The position numbers and the translations under genes were made by a program. 64,000 nt of DNA from Acidimicrobiaceae bacterium. GTDB lineage: Bacteria > Actinomycetota > Acidimicrobiia > Acidimicrobiales > Ilumatobacteraceae. Positions 41,249-46,949 of this stretch are shown here, piece by piece (position 1 is the first letter of the stretch; every line of letters starts with the position of its first letter). The stretch spans positions 62,001 through 126,000 of the forward strand of contig CANFGT010000001.1 in assembly GCA_947446815.1 (NCBI GenBank), read 5' to 3'. The notes beneath the pieces were generated by a model. It saw only the letters and a list, made by a program, of their open reading frames with translations, did not search any database and was not told the origin of the DNA.

Positions 41249-41310
41249 GGCAAACGGCTACCGTATAAGTAGTCGGTACAGCGTCGTATCGATGATTGGA
41301 GAAGACCCCC

Positions 41311-42711
41311 ATGGCTGACCAGTTCGACCTCGTTGTTGTTGGTGGCGGTCCCGGCGGATACGCCGCGGCCTTTTACGGTGCATCAGCCGGCCTGAACGTG
41401 GCACTGATCGAGAAGGACACCATCGGAGGCACTTGTCTCAACCGGGGTTGCATTCCTGCAAAGGCATTTCTTGAAACTGCAGCGGCACGTCGTCATGCAG
41501 AACATGCGACCGACTTCGGCATCGACGTCACGGTTGGTGCAACTGACTTCGCCGTTGCTCAAGCGCGCAAGCAGAAGATCGTTGATGGCTTGGTGAAGGG
41601 TCTCACCGGTCTTGTCAAAGTCAAGAAGGTGACATACCTCCTGGGAGTTGGTGCGTTGAACGCAGACAACTCCGTGACCGTCACTTCTGAAGACGGAACA
41701 ACCACTCAGTTGAAGGGTGACGCTGTCATCCTCGCTGCCGGAAGTGTTCCTCGCGTCATTCCTGGCTTCGAGCCCGGTGGTCCGATCATGACGTCTGATG
41801 AAGTTCTCATGCTTGACCGTATTCCTGCACGAATTGCAGTGATTGGCGGCGGTGCTATTGGCTGTGAGTTCGCATCCACATTCGCTGACCTTGGTTCGCA
41901 AGTAACAATTCTTGAAGGTCTGCCAAAGATTCTTCCTGGTCTCGATGCTGACCTTGCCAACGTTGTTGTTCGTTCCTTCCAGAAGAAAAAGATTGACATC
42001 AAAACAGGTGTTGCAGTGAAGGGGCATACGCCAACAGGCAGTGGTTCCACTGTGATTTCGTTCGGTGAAGGTGAAACTCTTGAAGTAGATGCTGTCATCG
42101 TCTCGGTGGGCCGTCGCCCATTCTCCGATCAACTGGGTCTTGGCAACACCAAAGTTGCAGTCAGTGATCGTGGCTTCGTTGAAGTCGATGAGTACTGCCA
42201 GACATCTGTTGATGGTGTGTATGCAATTGGTGACCTCATCAACACGCCACAGCTCGCACACGTTGCGTATGCAGAAGCAATTCTTGTTGTGCAGCAGTTA
42301 CTGGGCGAGAACGCAATCCCTGTTGATTACGACCGTGTGCCGTGGGCTATCTATTGCAGCCCTGAAGTTGCATGGGCAGGTCCTGGCGAAGAAGCAGCGA
42401 AGGCAGCTGGATACGACGTTGTTGTTGCCAAACATCAGTTCCGCGCGAACAGCCGCGCAATGATTCTCGGTGAAATCGATGGTCTCGTGAAGATCATCGC
42501 CAAGAAGAACGCTGATGGTTCTGCTGGTCAAGTTCTCGGCGTGCACATGGTGGGTCCATGGGTGACAGAACAGTTGTCAGGTGGATACCTCGCAGTGAAC
42601 TGGGAAGCCACTGTTGACGAAATTGCGCACTTCATCCAGCCGCACCCAAGCTTGTCCGAATTGTTTGGCGAGACAGTGATGTCTCTCACCGGCCGCAGCA
42701 TCAACGCATAA
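41311..42711 (+). CDS. lpdA: dihydrolipoyl dehydrogenase (E3)
   Basis: A 466-residue FAD disulfide reductase. It begins MADQFDLVVVGGGPGGYAAA, has the redox-active pair in GGTCLNRGCIPAK near residues 37-49, the NAD-binding GGGAIGCEFASTF near 180 and the C-terminal interface His-Glu in HPHPSLSELFGE-like FIQPHPSLSE near 445-454. It reoxidises the dihydrolipoyl arms of pyruvate and 2-oxoglutarate dehydrogenase complexes. ATG at 41311, preceded by GGAGAAG, follows a short inverted repeat (41259-41278). It leads the lpd / E2 / lipBA run. Confidence 0.97.
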   Translation: MADQFDLVVVGGGPGGYAAAFYGASAGLNVALIEKDTIGGTCLNRGCIPAKAFLETAAARRHAEHATDFGIDVTVGATDFAVAQARKQKIVDGLVKGLTGLVKVKKVTYLLGVGALNADNSVTVTSEDGTTTQLKGDAVILAAGSVPRVIPGFEPGGPIMTSDEVLMLDRIPARIAVIGGGAIGCEFASTFADLGSQVTILEGLPKILPGLDADLANVVVRSFQKKKIDIKTGVAVKGHTPTGSGSTVISFGEGETLEVDAVIVSVGRRPFSDQLGLGNTKVAVSDRGFVEVDEYCQTSVDGVYAIGDLINTPQLAHVAYAEAILVVQQLLGENAIPVDYDRVPWAIYCSPEVAWAGPGEEAAKAAGYDVVVAKHQFRANSRAMILGEIDGLVKIIAKKNADGSAGQVLGVHMVGPWVTEQLSGGYLAVNWEATVDEIAHFIQPHPSLSELFGETVMSLTGRSINA

Positions 42712-42735: not shown

Positions 42736-44142
42736 ATGGCAGAGATCACACTCCCGCAACTCGGCGAAACAGTCACCGAAGGAACCATCACACGTTGGTT
42801 CAAGAAGATCGGCGACACGGTTGCAGCCGACGAGCCATTGTTCGAAGTGTCGACCGACAAAGTTGACACTGAAGTTCCATCGCCGATTGCTGGTGTGTTG
42901 ACCGAGATTCGCGTTGCCGAAGGTGACACCGTCGCAGTCGGCACCGTCATCGCCGTCGTTGGCGATGCCTCCTCCTCTGCTGGTGCAGGCGCTTCGTCGC
43001 CGGCTTCTGCTGCCAGTGCGGCTCCTTCGGCACCGGCCTCAGAACCCGAAACCCGCACAAGTGCGAAGGTTTCGGAACCTGTAGTTCCCGTAGCAGCAGC
43101 GCCTGTAGCGCCGGCTCCAGAACCCGAAACCCGCACAAGTGCGAAGGTTTCGGAACCTGTCCCATCGCACGGCGCCGCGAGTGCTTCAACTCCATCCTCC
43201 TCAGGTGCTTCGGTGGTGTTGTCGCCGGTGGTGCGCAAGTTGATTGCAGAGAATGGTCTCGACGCGTCACGCATTCAGGGCACAGGCCCTGGTGGACGCA
43301 TTACGCGTGACGATGTCGTCGCTGCAATCGCAAGCAAGGGTTCTGCGCCCGCATCGGCTCCGGTTGTTGCAGCAAGTTCCGCACCCGTGACAGCTCCACG
43401 TGGAGTTGCCCCGCGCGTCGTCGCCGGCAATCGCGACGAAGTTGTCGCACTTTCGAAGATTCGTCAGGCAACAGGTATTCACGCTCTGATGAGCAAAGAT
43501 GCGATTCCTGCTGCATTCAGCGTTGTTGAAGTCGATTTCGCAAATGTTGTTGCAACACGTGGTCGTTTGAAGGAAGAGTTCAAAGCCACAGAAGGTTTCA
43601 GCCTCACGTATCTTCCATTCATCGCGCGTGCAGTTGTCGATGCATTGAAAGAATTCCCTCACATGAACTCATCAGTGGGCGAGAGTGAACTCATCGTTCA
43701 TAAGTTTGTTGATCTGGGTATCGCAATCGATCTTGATTATCAAGGACTATTGGCTCCGGTTATTCGCGATGCAGATGAGAAGCGTCTTCGTGCCATCGCT
43801 CGTGAAGTGAATGACCTTGCGATCCGTGCGCGTTCACGTCAACTTTCTCCAATGGAGATCTCTGGCGGAACATTCACCATTACCAACAATGGTTCTTCCG
43901 GTTCCGTCCTCACCATGCCCATCATCAATCAACCACAGGTGGCAATACTTTCCACTGATGCGGTAAAGAAAAAGCCAGTGGTCATTGAGATTCCTGGTGG
44001 TGGAGAGAGCATCGCGATTCACCCTGTGGGCAATCTTGCAATGGCGTGGGATCATCGCGCTTTTGACGGAGCCTATGCAGCCAACTTCTTGGTGAAGGTG
44101 AAGTTCATCCTCGAAACACGCGATTGGTCGTCTGAGCTCTAA
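42736..44142 (+). CDS. dihydrolipoyl acyltransferase E2 of pyruvate / 2-oxoglutarate dehydrogenase
   Basis: A 468-residue E2. One lipoyl domain (about 1-75) has the lipoylated lysine K42 in STDKVDTE. A Ala/Ser/Pro linker follows, then a peripheral-subunit-binding domain (LSPVVRKLIAENGLDASRIQGTGPGGRITRDDVVAAI, about 158-195), and a catalytic domain (about 230-468) ending in DHRAFDGA, the H-x3-DG acyltransferase motif. The linker contains two identical 43-base copies (see repeats). With aceE, lpdA and lipBA it can complete a pyruvate dehydrogenase complex; a 2-oxoglutarate role is possible. 24 bases after lpdA. Confidence 0.94.
   Translation: MAEITLPQLGETVTEGTITRWFKKIGDTVAADEPLFEVSTDKVDTEVPSPIAGVLTEIRVAEGDTVAVGTVIAVVGDASSSAGAGASSPASAASAAPSAPASEPETRTSAKVSEPVVPVAAAPVAPAPEPETRTSAKVSEPVPSHGAASASTPSSSGASVVLSPVVRKLIAENGLDASRIQGTGPGGRITRDDVVAAIASKGSAPASAPVVAASSAPVTAPRGVAPRVVAGNRDEVVALSKIRQATGIHALMSKDAIPAAFSVVEVDFANVVATRGRLKEEFKATEGFSLTYLPFIARAVVDALKEFPHMNSSVGESELIVHKFVDLGIAIDLDYQGLLAPVIRDADEKRLRAIAREVNDLAIRARSRQLSPMEISGGTFTITNNGSSGSVLTMPIINQPQVAILSTDAVKKKPVVIEIPGGGESIAIHPVGNLAMAWDHRAFDGAYAANFLVKVKFILETRDWSSEL
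43040..43160 (+). repeat. perfect 43-base direct repeat inside the E2 linker
   Basis: The same 43 bases stand at 43040-43082 and 43118-43160, 78 bases apart from start to start. They encode the segment EPETRTSAKVSEPV in each copy. The identity, down to synonymous sites, points to a recent duplication or recombination hot spot, and to variable linker length between strains. Its position in the flexible swinging-arm linker makes length change tolerable. Confidence 0.9.
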
Positions 44143-44172
44143 GGAGCCCTCACGACGGAAGTGTTCGACACC

Positions 44173-45837
44173 ATGGCCGACACATCCACTCAACTACATG
44201 TGCGATGGCTGGGACGTGTGCCCTATGCCGAGGCGCTGGTTGTGCAAGACGCGATGTTCCGCAACGGAAGCGGCAATCGTTTGTTGCTGATGGAACATCC
44301 ACATGTCTTCACCTACGGACCTTCGGCGGACCTCAAGAAGAATCTTCGATGTGATCCAGCAGCAGTGGGTGCAGACTTTGTTCGAGTGAAGCGTGGTGGA
44401 GACATCACGTATCACGGGCCAGGACAACTTGTCGGGTACCCGCTCGTCAACCTTGCGCCAAAGCACGGCAATGATGGACCAGCGGATTCAGTTGCCTATG
44501 TGTGCTCGGTGGAGCAAGTCATCATCAACTCTTTGCATGAGATTGGTCTCACCAATGCTGGACGACTCGCCGGCTATCCCGGTGTGTGGCTAGACGTTGA
44601 TAGCAATCCTCGCAAAATTTGTGCAATTGGTGTTCGAGTGAGTCGCCGGCGCACTATGCACGGCTTTGCCGTGAACGTACACACAGATCTTGATTACATG
44701 AGCACAAACATTGTTCCCTGTGGCATCTCGGAATATCCCGTGACATCGATTGCTGCAGAAGGAATTGATATCTCCATGCATGACTTCACAGATGTTGTTG
44801 CACGACATGCCGCCAACATGTGGGGTAACGGCGAGATGGAACGTCAAGACGTGGCTTGGAAGCAAACTCCTGACGACTTATCTGCGTTTTCCCGCGGCGA
44901 AGGTCCTGGACAGCCTGTGCGCATGTTGGGTCGGCTTGCACGTGCAGGTGTTGAAGATTCCATCCCATTGTCTGAACGCAAGCCGGATTGGATTCGTCCG
45001 CATGTAAAGCACGGCGAAGAAGTGCTGACCTTGAAAAAGACTTTGCGTGAATTGTCATTGGTGACTGTGTGCGAAGAAGCAGGTTGTCCGAACTTGTCGG
45101 AATGTTGGAACGACGGCACTGCAACATTCATGGTGTTGGGTGAGCGTTGTACACGAGCATGTGGGTTCTGCCTTATTGATACACAAAAGCCCGAAGCACC
45201 CGATGGGCAAGAACCTATGCGAATCGCCGAAGCTGTAGCGAAAATGGATTTGAAGTTTGCGGTGCTCACGATGGTGGCGCGAGATGACTTGGCCGATGAA
45301 GGGATGGGTCATGTTGCTGAGTGCATTCACGCCATTCGAAGCGTTGATTCAAACATCCAGGTGGAGACATTGATCTCTGATGGGCGTGGGACAGATTCAT
45401 TGAACATCCTGATTGATGCACGTCCTGATGTGTTCAACCACAACATGGAAACCGTGCCACGTTTACAGCGTGCTGTTCGGCCAAGCGCCGGGTATGCCCG
45501 CAGCTTGTCTGTTCTTGCTCGAGGCAAGGCAGCTGGGCTCACTGTGAAGTCCGGTCTCATTGTGGGAATGGGAGAAACTGACGACGAAGTGCTGGGTGTG
45601 CTTGCCGATCTCGCAGAAGTGGGCGTCGATATCGTGACAATTGGTCAATATCTCCGTCCTACGACGAATCATCTGCCGGTCGCACGTTGGGTAGAGCCAG
45701 CGATTTTCAACATGTACAAGCGTGTCGGAGAAGAACTGGGAATCGGACATGTGGAGTCCAGCCCGTTGACTCGTTCCAGCTATCACGCCCGAGAATCGGC
45801 AGAACACGCCGTACCTGTCACAATTGGAATGCGATGA
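44173..45837 (+). CDS. fused octanoyltransferase (LipB) and lipoyl synthase (LipA)
   Basis: A 554-residue two-domain enzyme. Residues about 1-235 are LipB: RGGDITYHGPGQLVGYPLVNL, the catalytic lysine in RKICAIGVRVSRR (K148) and the acyl-transfer cysteine in NIVPCGISEYPV (C183). Residues about 255-554 are LipA, a radical-SAM lipoyl synthase: the auxiliary cluster cysteines C300-x4-C305-x5-C311, the radical-SAM cluster C326-x3-C330-x2-C333, GETDDEV and the closing RSSYHARESAE. LipB moves octanoyl from acyl-carrier protein to the E2 lysine, and LipA inserts the two sulfurs. Fusion would channel the octanoylated protein. ATG at 44173 is preferred; GTG at 44161 is also possible. 18 bases from E2 gene to the earlier GTG. 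Confidence 0.95.
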   Translation: MADTSTQLHVRWLGRVPYAEALVVQDAMFRNGSGNRLLLMEHPHVFTYGPSADLKKNLRCDPAAVGADFVRVKRGGDITYHGPGQLVGYPLVNLAPKHGNDGPADSVAYVCSVEQVIINSLHEIGLTNAGRLAGYPGVWLDVDSNPRKICAIGVRVSRRRTMHGFAVNVHTDLDYMSTNIVPCGISEYPVTSIAAEGIDISMHDFTDVVARHAANMWGNGEMERQDVAWKQTPDDLSAFSRGEGPGQPVRMLGRLARAGVEDSIPLSERKPDWIRPHVKHGEEVLTLKKTLRELSLVTVCEEAGCPNLSECWNDGTATFMVLGERCTRACGFCLIDTQKPEAPDGQEPMRIAEAVAKMDLKFAVLTMVARDDLADEGMGHVAECIHAIRSVDSNIQVETLISDGRGTDSLNILIDARPDVFNHNMETVPRLQRAVRPSAGYARSLSVLARGKAAGLTVKSGLIVGMGETDDEVLGVLADLAEVGVDIVTIGQYLRPTTNHLPVARWVEPAIFNMYKRVGEELGIGHVESSPLTRSSYHARESAEHAVPVTIGMR

Positions 45838-46949
45838 ACATCACTACTGACGCCTCCGTCTTCTCTGCACGACTTGATCGAGCTCGTGCGGAAATGGTGC
45901 GCTCCGGCGTTGATGCGCTCATTTTGTCCTTGGGCCACGACATGCCGTACCTCATGGGCTACTTGGCAATGCCGCTTGAACGTCTCACGATGTTGGTGGT
46001 GCCCCGCGATGGTGAAGCATCTCTCATTATTCCGCGCCTCGAAGCTCCACGTGTGCATGAACTTCCTGGTGTGTTCGCCATGGTTCCGTGGAATGAGACT
46101 GAAGATCCCGTTGCCATTGCGCACACGTTGTTGGGTGCTGCTCAGACCATCGCAGTCGGTGATCAGATGTGGTCTCGCTTCCTTGTTGATCTTCTTCTTC
46201 ATCGCCCCACCGCGAAGTACGTGCGCAGTGTCACTGTGATGGAAGCATTGCGATCACGCAAGGATGCAGCAGAGATTGCGGCCCTTGTTGCCGCAGGTGC
46301 TGCAGCTGACCGAGTCGCAGCGCAACTACATGCAGGGGATATTCCTCTTGTGGGTCGCACTGAAGCGCAAGTGTCTGCAGATATCTCTGCGCGGCTGATT
46401 GCTGAAGGTCACCAGAAGGTGAACTTTGCGATTGTTGCAGCAGGAGAGAATGCAGCAAGTCCTCATCACCACGCCGGTGACCGAGTGATTAATCATGGTG
46501 AGATCGTGTTATGCGACTTTGGTGGAACCATGAACGGGTATTGCAGTGACATCACTCGATGTGTGCACCTCGGTGAACCACCGAAAGAGATTTCTGATGC
46601 ATATGACGTGCTCTTTGAGGCACAATCTGCTGGTGTTGCTGCAGGCAAAGTGGGTGTCACCTGTGAACACGTTGATTTCGCAACGCGTCGAGTGATTGAA
46701 GCCGCGGGATATGGCGAATACTTCGTACACCGCACAGGTCACGGCATCGGCATGGAAGAACACGAAGACCCCTACATGGTGTCGGGCAACACCACGCTGT
46801 TAGCCGCGGGTCATGCCTACAGCGTGGAGCCAGGCATCTATGTGCCGAACAAGTGGGGCATGCGCTTGGAAGACATAGTGGTCGCTACAGAGAACGGTCC
46901 AATGTCTGTCAATCACGCCAATCATCACCTCGTCATTCTCGACAAATAG
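45834..46949 (+). CDS. M24 metallopeptidase, Xaa-Pro dipeptidase-like
   Basis: A 371-residue pita-bread-fold peptidase. Metal ligands: the D of LCDFGGTMNGYCSD (two aspartates near 219 and 230), H of HRTGHGIGMEEHEDPY near 298, E in SVEPGIYVPNKWG near 331 and E in RLEDIVV near 345. The N-terminal creatinase-like domain precedes it. Start ATG at 45834 overlaps the LipBA stop (ATGA), so translation is coupled. Xaa-Pro or aminopeptidase specificity is not certain. Confidence 0.92.
   Translation: MNITTDASVFSARLDRARAEMVRSGVDALILSLGHDMPYLMGYLAMPLERLTMLVVPRDGEASLIIPRLEAPRVHELPGVFAMVPWNETEDPVAIAHTLLGAAQTIAVGDQMWSRFLVDLLLHRPTAKYVRSVTVMEALRSRKDAAEIAALVAAGAAADRVAAQLHAGDIPLVGRTEAQVSADISARLIAEGHQKVNFAIVAAGENAASPHHHAGDRVINHGEIVLCDFGGTMNGYCSDITRCVHLGEPPKEISDAYDVLFEAQSAGVAAGKVGVTCEHVDFATRRVIEAAGYGEYFVHRTGHGIGMEEHEDPYMVSGNTTLLAAGHAYSVEPGIYVPNKWGMRLEDIVVATENGPMSVNHANHHLVILDK

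Follow-up and report, generated by a model that had tools for sequence, protein, structure and literature searches.

According to two published accounts, LipB (octanoyltransferase) takes an octanoyl group from ACP and passes it through a cysteine to the lipoyl-domain lysine, after which LipA (lipoyl synthase) inserts two sulfurs (PMC9307952, PMC12246082), and a CX3CX2C motif is described for LipA (PMC12246082). Both enzymes are normally stand-alone proteins. A fused arrangement is represented by the curated NCBIfam model NF053790 (bifunctional lipoate--protein ligase/lipoyl synthase), in which, by its name, an attaching enzyme precedes LipA, as it does in the protein described here. The successive meetings of a lipoyl domain with LipB and then with LipA have usually been studied with free enzymes.

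The window that we analyzed, a stretch of 64,000 nucleotides from a draft genome of an Acidimicrobiaceae bacterium, contains a lipB-lipA fusion gene on the forward strand (44173..45837), recognized by its open frame and family matches, in which LipA follows LipB in frame and is thus preceded by LipB and a conserved linker. The ATG at 44173 gives a protein of 554 amino acids with an estimated mass of ~61 kDa, a possible GTG at 44161 would give one of 558 (four more residues), and a TGA at 45835-45837 closes the frame. The LipB half (44173..44823, residues 1-217) and the LipA half (44917..45834, residues 249-554, its own N-terminal extension included) were both assigned from family and structure matches. 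The Pfam domains LplA-B_cat (residues 18-212), LIAS_N (268-305), and Radical_SAM (321-478) all score above cut-off, and the Pfam and NCBIfam models together span residues ~5-217 for LipB and ~268-546 for LipA. Two of five curated NCBIfam models for LipB pass, NF010925 with 166.6 bits (cut-off, 155) and TIGR00214 with 135.7 bits (cut-off, 83.55), and the other three (NF010921, NF010922, and NF010923) match below cut-off. For LipA, TIGR00510 passes with 343.7 bits (cut-off, 310.25), as do NF004019 and NF009544.

An earlier note on this DNA had placed the LipB residues K148 and C183 and both LipA iron-sulfur cysteine sets in one frame. We found K148 and C183 at these positions in an uninterrupted frame, along with an RGG..TYHGPGQ stretch at residues 74-85, and the LipA half contains auxiliary cysteines at 300, 305, and 311 (CX4CX5C), radical-SAM cysteines at 326, 330, and 333 (CX3CX2C), and the sequence RSSYHA at 534-539 (RSSY, 534-537) at its C-terminal end. 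These three motifs are expected of a lipoyl synthase. We aligned 143 fused rows, among them the window protein, a Desulfobacteraceae fusion (L080), and some nearly identical copies. No row lacks K148, C183, or the auxiliary cysteines; the radical-SAM cysteines are conserved in 142 (the remaining row is a gap in a cut sequence), and the RSSY arginine in 138 (the rest being four gaps and one unknown letter). Foldseek searches with the predicted model matched the LipB half to 1w66 (M. tuberculosis LipB) and 2qhs and the LipA half to 5exk (M. tuberculosis), 4u0p, and human LIAS entries. The AlphaFold model of the whole protein has a mean pLDDT of 84.8, with a stretch of low confidence at residues 325-329, beside the radical-SAM cysteines; its pTM of 0.88 suggests that the LipB and LipA halves are predicted in a defined arrangement. 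Judged from sequence, both enzyme halves are apparently intact and individually ordinary, so the fusion most likely performs octanoylation and then sulfur insertion.

The gene order in the window is lpd, E2, lipBA, M24 peptidase, all on the forward strand. As the earlier note had described, the fusion lies right after genes for a dihydrolipoamide dehydrogenase (lpd, 41296..42711, assigned from family matches and position) and a lipoyl-bearing E2 acyltransferase (42736..44142), which has an E3-binding domain besides its one lipoyl domain and, being encoded immediately upstream, is the likely substrate. When an E2 gene within 400 nt was counted as immediately upstream, one was found in 132 of 140 testable loci of the class Acidimicrobiia, drawn from overlapping sets (58/59, 25/28, 27/30, and 22/23). 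By the same criterion, one was found at 6 of 21 loci from outside the class and at none (0/19) of the proteobacterial loci whose lipB and lipA genes are separate. Directly downstream of the fusion is a gene for an M24 family peptidase (45834..46949), whose ATG overlaps the lipBA stop codon at 45834-45837 (ATGA); the two genes are possibly translationally coupled. A peptidase gene of this family occupies the same position in about half of the class loci (29/57, 16/30, 9/24, and 12/25).

The GcvH gene of the source genome is on another contig than the fusion, and the fused enzyme would probably have to serve GcvH too. This genome also encodes, on contig C6 (L201:354-1010), a small LplA-like protein of 218 amino acids with an LplA-B_cat match above cut-off, for which lipoate salvage or another acyl transfer is a possible role, so the fusion need not be the only route to lipoylation. 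A third Biotin_lipoyl match was observed on contig C1 (228199-228399), in a frame absent from the ORF listing; it may mark either a biotin or a lipoyl carrier.

We scanned one-per-species genome contigs and, among the matches listed, kept the best 80 loci. In all of the top 59 (L001-L059), a single unbroken frame encodes both LipB and LipA; the titles of these entries are Acidimicrobiia, Acidimicrobiales, Ilumatobacteraceae, Actinomycetota, and similar, with one Acidobacteria. The next 20 (L060-L079), all proteobacterial, have LipB and LipA as separate proteins, and the last of the 80 is the Desulfobacteraceae fusion. The nearest named matches among those listed are an Actinomycetota MAG with 93% identity and a MAG with 84% from the Ilumatobacteraceae, a family of the Acidimicrobiia, from which the class was deduced, and the source genome has one single match to the fused protein. 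Because every place listed covers LipB and LipA on the same strand and in the same frame, this contig list favors fusions, and for this reason whole genomes were examined at the ORF level.

Among the matches listed, 365 of 395 Acidimicrobiia genomes match the fused protein and 30 are without a match. We examined 90 different genomes of the class in three sets of 30, consisting of the best matches (L081-L110), genomes chosen mostly across families (L111-L140, in some of which LipA is cut by a contig end with the join present), and genomes picked for a weak or broken match in a hunt for separate genes (L171-L200). The fused frame is present in 85 of the 90 (30/30, 30/30, and 25/30, respectively), and these counts are not additive with the 59 contigs, which come partly from the same organisms. 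As for the other five, the locus is cut by a contig edge in L189 and L196, L198 has a frameshift inside LipA with LipB and the front of LipA sharing one frame, L199 has a weak radical-SAM match only and no LipA, and the LipA search gave no match in L200. Separate complete lipB and lipA genes were not found in any of the 88 class genomes with LipA. One genome (G052, contig C83:2400-3227) encodes, in addition to the fusion, a second LipA on its own, with 326 amino acids and 50% identity.

Outside the class, in a sample of 30 genomes of the same phylum picked partly for long frames, no fusion was found (0/30); in 23 of these genomes the two proteins are encoded near each other by separate frames, and in the other 7 the stretch examined has no LipB. 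In two Actinomycetota loci of this kind (L141 and L142) the order is reversed, with LipB directly after LipA on the same strand. This distribution strongly supports the natural fusion claimed in the earlier note, which had also proposed a search for the same architecture in related genomes (here, it is present in the 59 best of the 80 contigs and in 85 of the 90 class genomes).

The earlier note had put the linker near residues 235-255. We place the fusion-specific part at ~218-248 instead, since matches to the LipB models stop at ~217 and similarity to M. tuberculosis LipA is seen already from residue 254, ahead of the start of the LipA model matches at 268. Within this part, residues 221-248 (44833..44916, forward strand) form a conserved linker element, identified by codon comparison, a profile, and the AlphaFold model. 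In a comparison of codons 213-256 between the window and eight relatives, the differences at codon positions 1, 2, and 3 numbered 61, 30, and 196, and the share of changed codons that were non-synonymous was 65/224 for the linker, 389/1097 for LipB, and 405/1442 for LipA. The codon-position pattern and the non-synonymous share indicate that the junction is translated and constrained about as much as the enzymes; by this measure, the linker in the window's closer relatives is a constrained element and no loose spacer. A pattern of R-x-D-V-A-W ... D-L-[SA]-x-F-[ST]-R-G-E-G recurs at residues ~224-246.

A profile of residues 221-248, for which 111 of the 143 aligned rows were used, matches 95 of 145 fused frames with E below 1e-3, a count that is partly circular because the profile comes from such rows. 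Among loci not classed as fused, the profile found only L198, the frameshifted fusion, with no other hit below an E value of 1, and this absence of the element from separate genes is free of the circularity. The element is missing from 50 of the 145 fused frames, many of them from other orders of the class, in which the linker is shorter or different, and thus it is not class-wide. Between matched domains, the length of the linker ranges from ~4 to 127 residues across fused frames. In the AlphaFold model of the window protein, this region has a strand at 222-226 and a helix at 249-257, with low confidence at 231-249.

We built FastTree phylogenies separately for LipB and LipA. With one proteobacterial sequence as the root, the class sequences form one clade in both trees (node support of 0.86 for LipA and 0.89 for LipB), with outsiders nested at weakly supported deep nodes (L147, L150, and L152 in the LipA tree; L141 and L142 in the LipB tree). 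The simplest reading of these trees is a single fusion of neighboring genes early in the class, although the deepest branches are poorly resolved and the genes may have split again or fused more than once. Since lipB and lipA are separate and close together in most of the loci sampled outside the class, loss of a stop codon could have made the fusion.

The Desulfobacteraceae fusion (L080:3287-4825, 512 amino acids), found on one metagenome contig, is like that of the window in its domain order and in lying behind E2 and lpd, and differs in having a linker of ~4 residues, compared to 30 in the window by the same measure. Its operon (L080:545-7466) consists of E2, lpd, and the fusion, followed by two frames that we interpret as E1 alpha and E1 beta, and the cluster reads as one of the 2-oxoacid or acetoin dehydrogenase type. 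In neither tree does this protein belong to the class clade; given also its short linker, it is probably the product of an independent fusion, a conclusion that rests on the one contig.

We conclude that the window gene very probably encodes a true bifunctional enzyme that arose when neighboring lipB and lipA genes fused, an event that probably dates to an early ancestor of the Acidimicrobiia, and that has been kept since. Both activities, and the full-length protein as the working form, are what we infer from the sequence. The LipB half would move octanoate from octanoyl-ACP onto C183 and then pass it to a lipoyl-domain lysine, chiefly that of the E2 encoded upstream and probably that of GcvH too, and the LipA half would then insert two sulfurs via its two iron-sulfur clusters. 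Joining the halves would keep the two activities at a fixed ratio and may hold both active sites close to one and the same lipoyl domain. A direct hand-over of octanoylated E2 between the sites, as the synteny with E2 and the two-domain model would allow, is plausible and speculative.

The earlier note had raised the concern that an assembly or base-calling error joined two genes, and the source genome is indeed an incomplete draft of 19 contigs, 90.85% complete. However, many assemblies agree on the join, which recurs in all of the best contigs and most class genomes described above, the single-contig G002, G027, and G157 included, and the third-position codon bias spans the junction; an artefact is thus extremely improbable, and we rejected an assembly error on the comparison with the assemblies of relatives. 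It could also be that LipA is additionally or mainly made as a separate protein, from an internal start or by cleavage of the linker, with the fusion coupling expression rather than action. The low-confidence prediction for residues 231-249 would fit such an arrangement, as would the in-frame GTG and ATG codons that the window gene has at residues 249 and 251, where the N terminus of LipA would begin. Against it, no Shine-Dalgarno-like site scored before these two codons, although the gene's own 5' starts also scored 0; across the 145 fused frames, such sites numbered 36 before LipA compared to 25 inside LipB and 61 inside LipA as controls, a weak test in which we saw no enrichment and on which the internal start was set aside. 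In addition, 103 of the 145 fused frames have no ATG at the front of LipA, and the linker is constrained as much as the domains. We regard separate production of LipA as quite unlikely.

The third alternative accepts the fused protein and denies it any advantage: one chance loss of a stop codon between co-operating neighbors would have been passively inherited, with the two steps remaining uncoupled. This is a possible reading that we hold to be somewhat doubtful. It fits the separate and yet adjacent genes outside the class, the near-single clades in both trees, which are compatible with one event, and the wide range of linker lengths, but it sits less easily with the lack of any reversal to separate complete genes in class genomes with LipA, with the linker being constrained like the domains in close relatives, and with the fusion in the E2-lpd operon of a Desulfobacteraceae contig, which probably arose independently. 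A more ambitious form of the bifunctional enzyme that we favor would make the linker a docking element that seats LipB-LipA on the E2 complex, giving a lipoylation machine that is dedicated to this complex and works in place, with one lipoyl domain undergoing both steps without release, a solution that would have arisen again in the Desulfobacteraceae operon; we think it unlikely that all of this applies. The class-wide fusion, the constrained linker, and the adjoining E2 offer a direct route to asking whether the two steps couple on one lipoyl domain, and the gene could be tried in laboratory strains as a lipoylation cassette of one gene.

Compared to LipB as represented by TIGR00214, NF010925, and 1w66, the window protein has the whole domain with the catalytic lysine and cysteine and passes the cut-offs; compared to LipA (TIGR00510, M. 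tuberculosis 5exi/5exk, and human LIAS), it has the whole domain, the N-terminal extension, both cysteine triplets, and RSSY. The fusion represented by NF053790 differs in its attaching half, which is LplA where the window protein has LipB, and membership in this family was rejected, since the window protein scores 325.9 bits against a cut-off of 800 and matches through its LipA half only (profile positions 331-605 of 606). The NCBIfam matches of the window protein include no model for a LipB-LipA fusion, and we found no description of one in the literature searched, a set of incomplete coverage that includes the available parts of PMC10332631, PMC3917532, PMC12246082, PMC3543383, and PMC9307952. 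The chemistry is ordinary and the architecture is unusual and long kept, with the LplA-LipA fusion as a known precedent of its kind; what sets this protein apart from the known systems is the long-kept fusion together with the conserved stretch that connects its halves.
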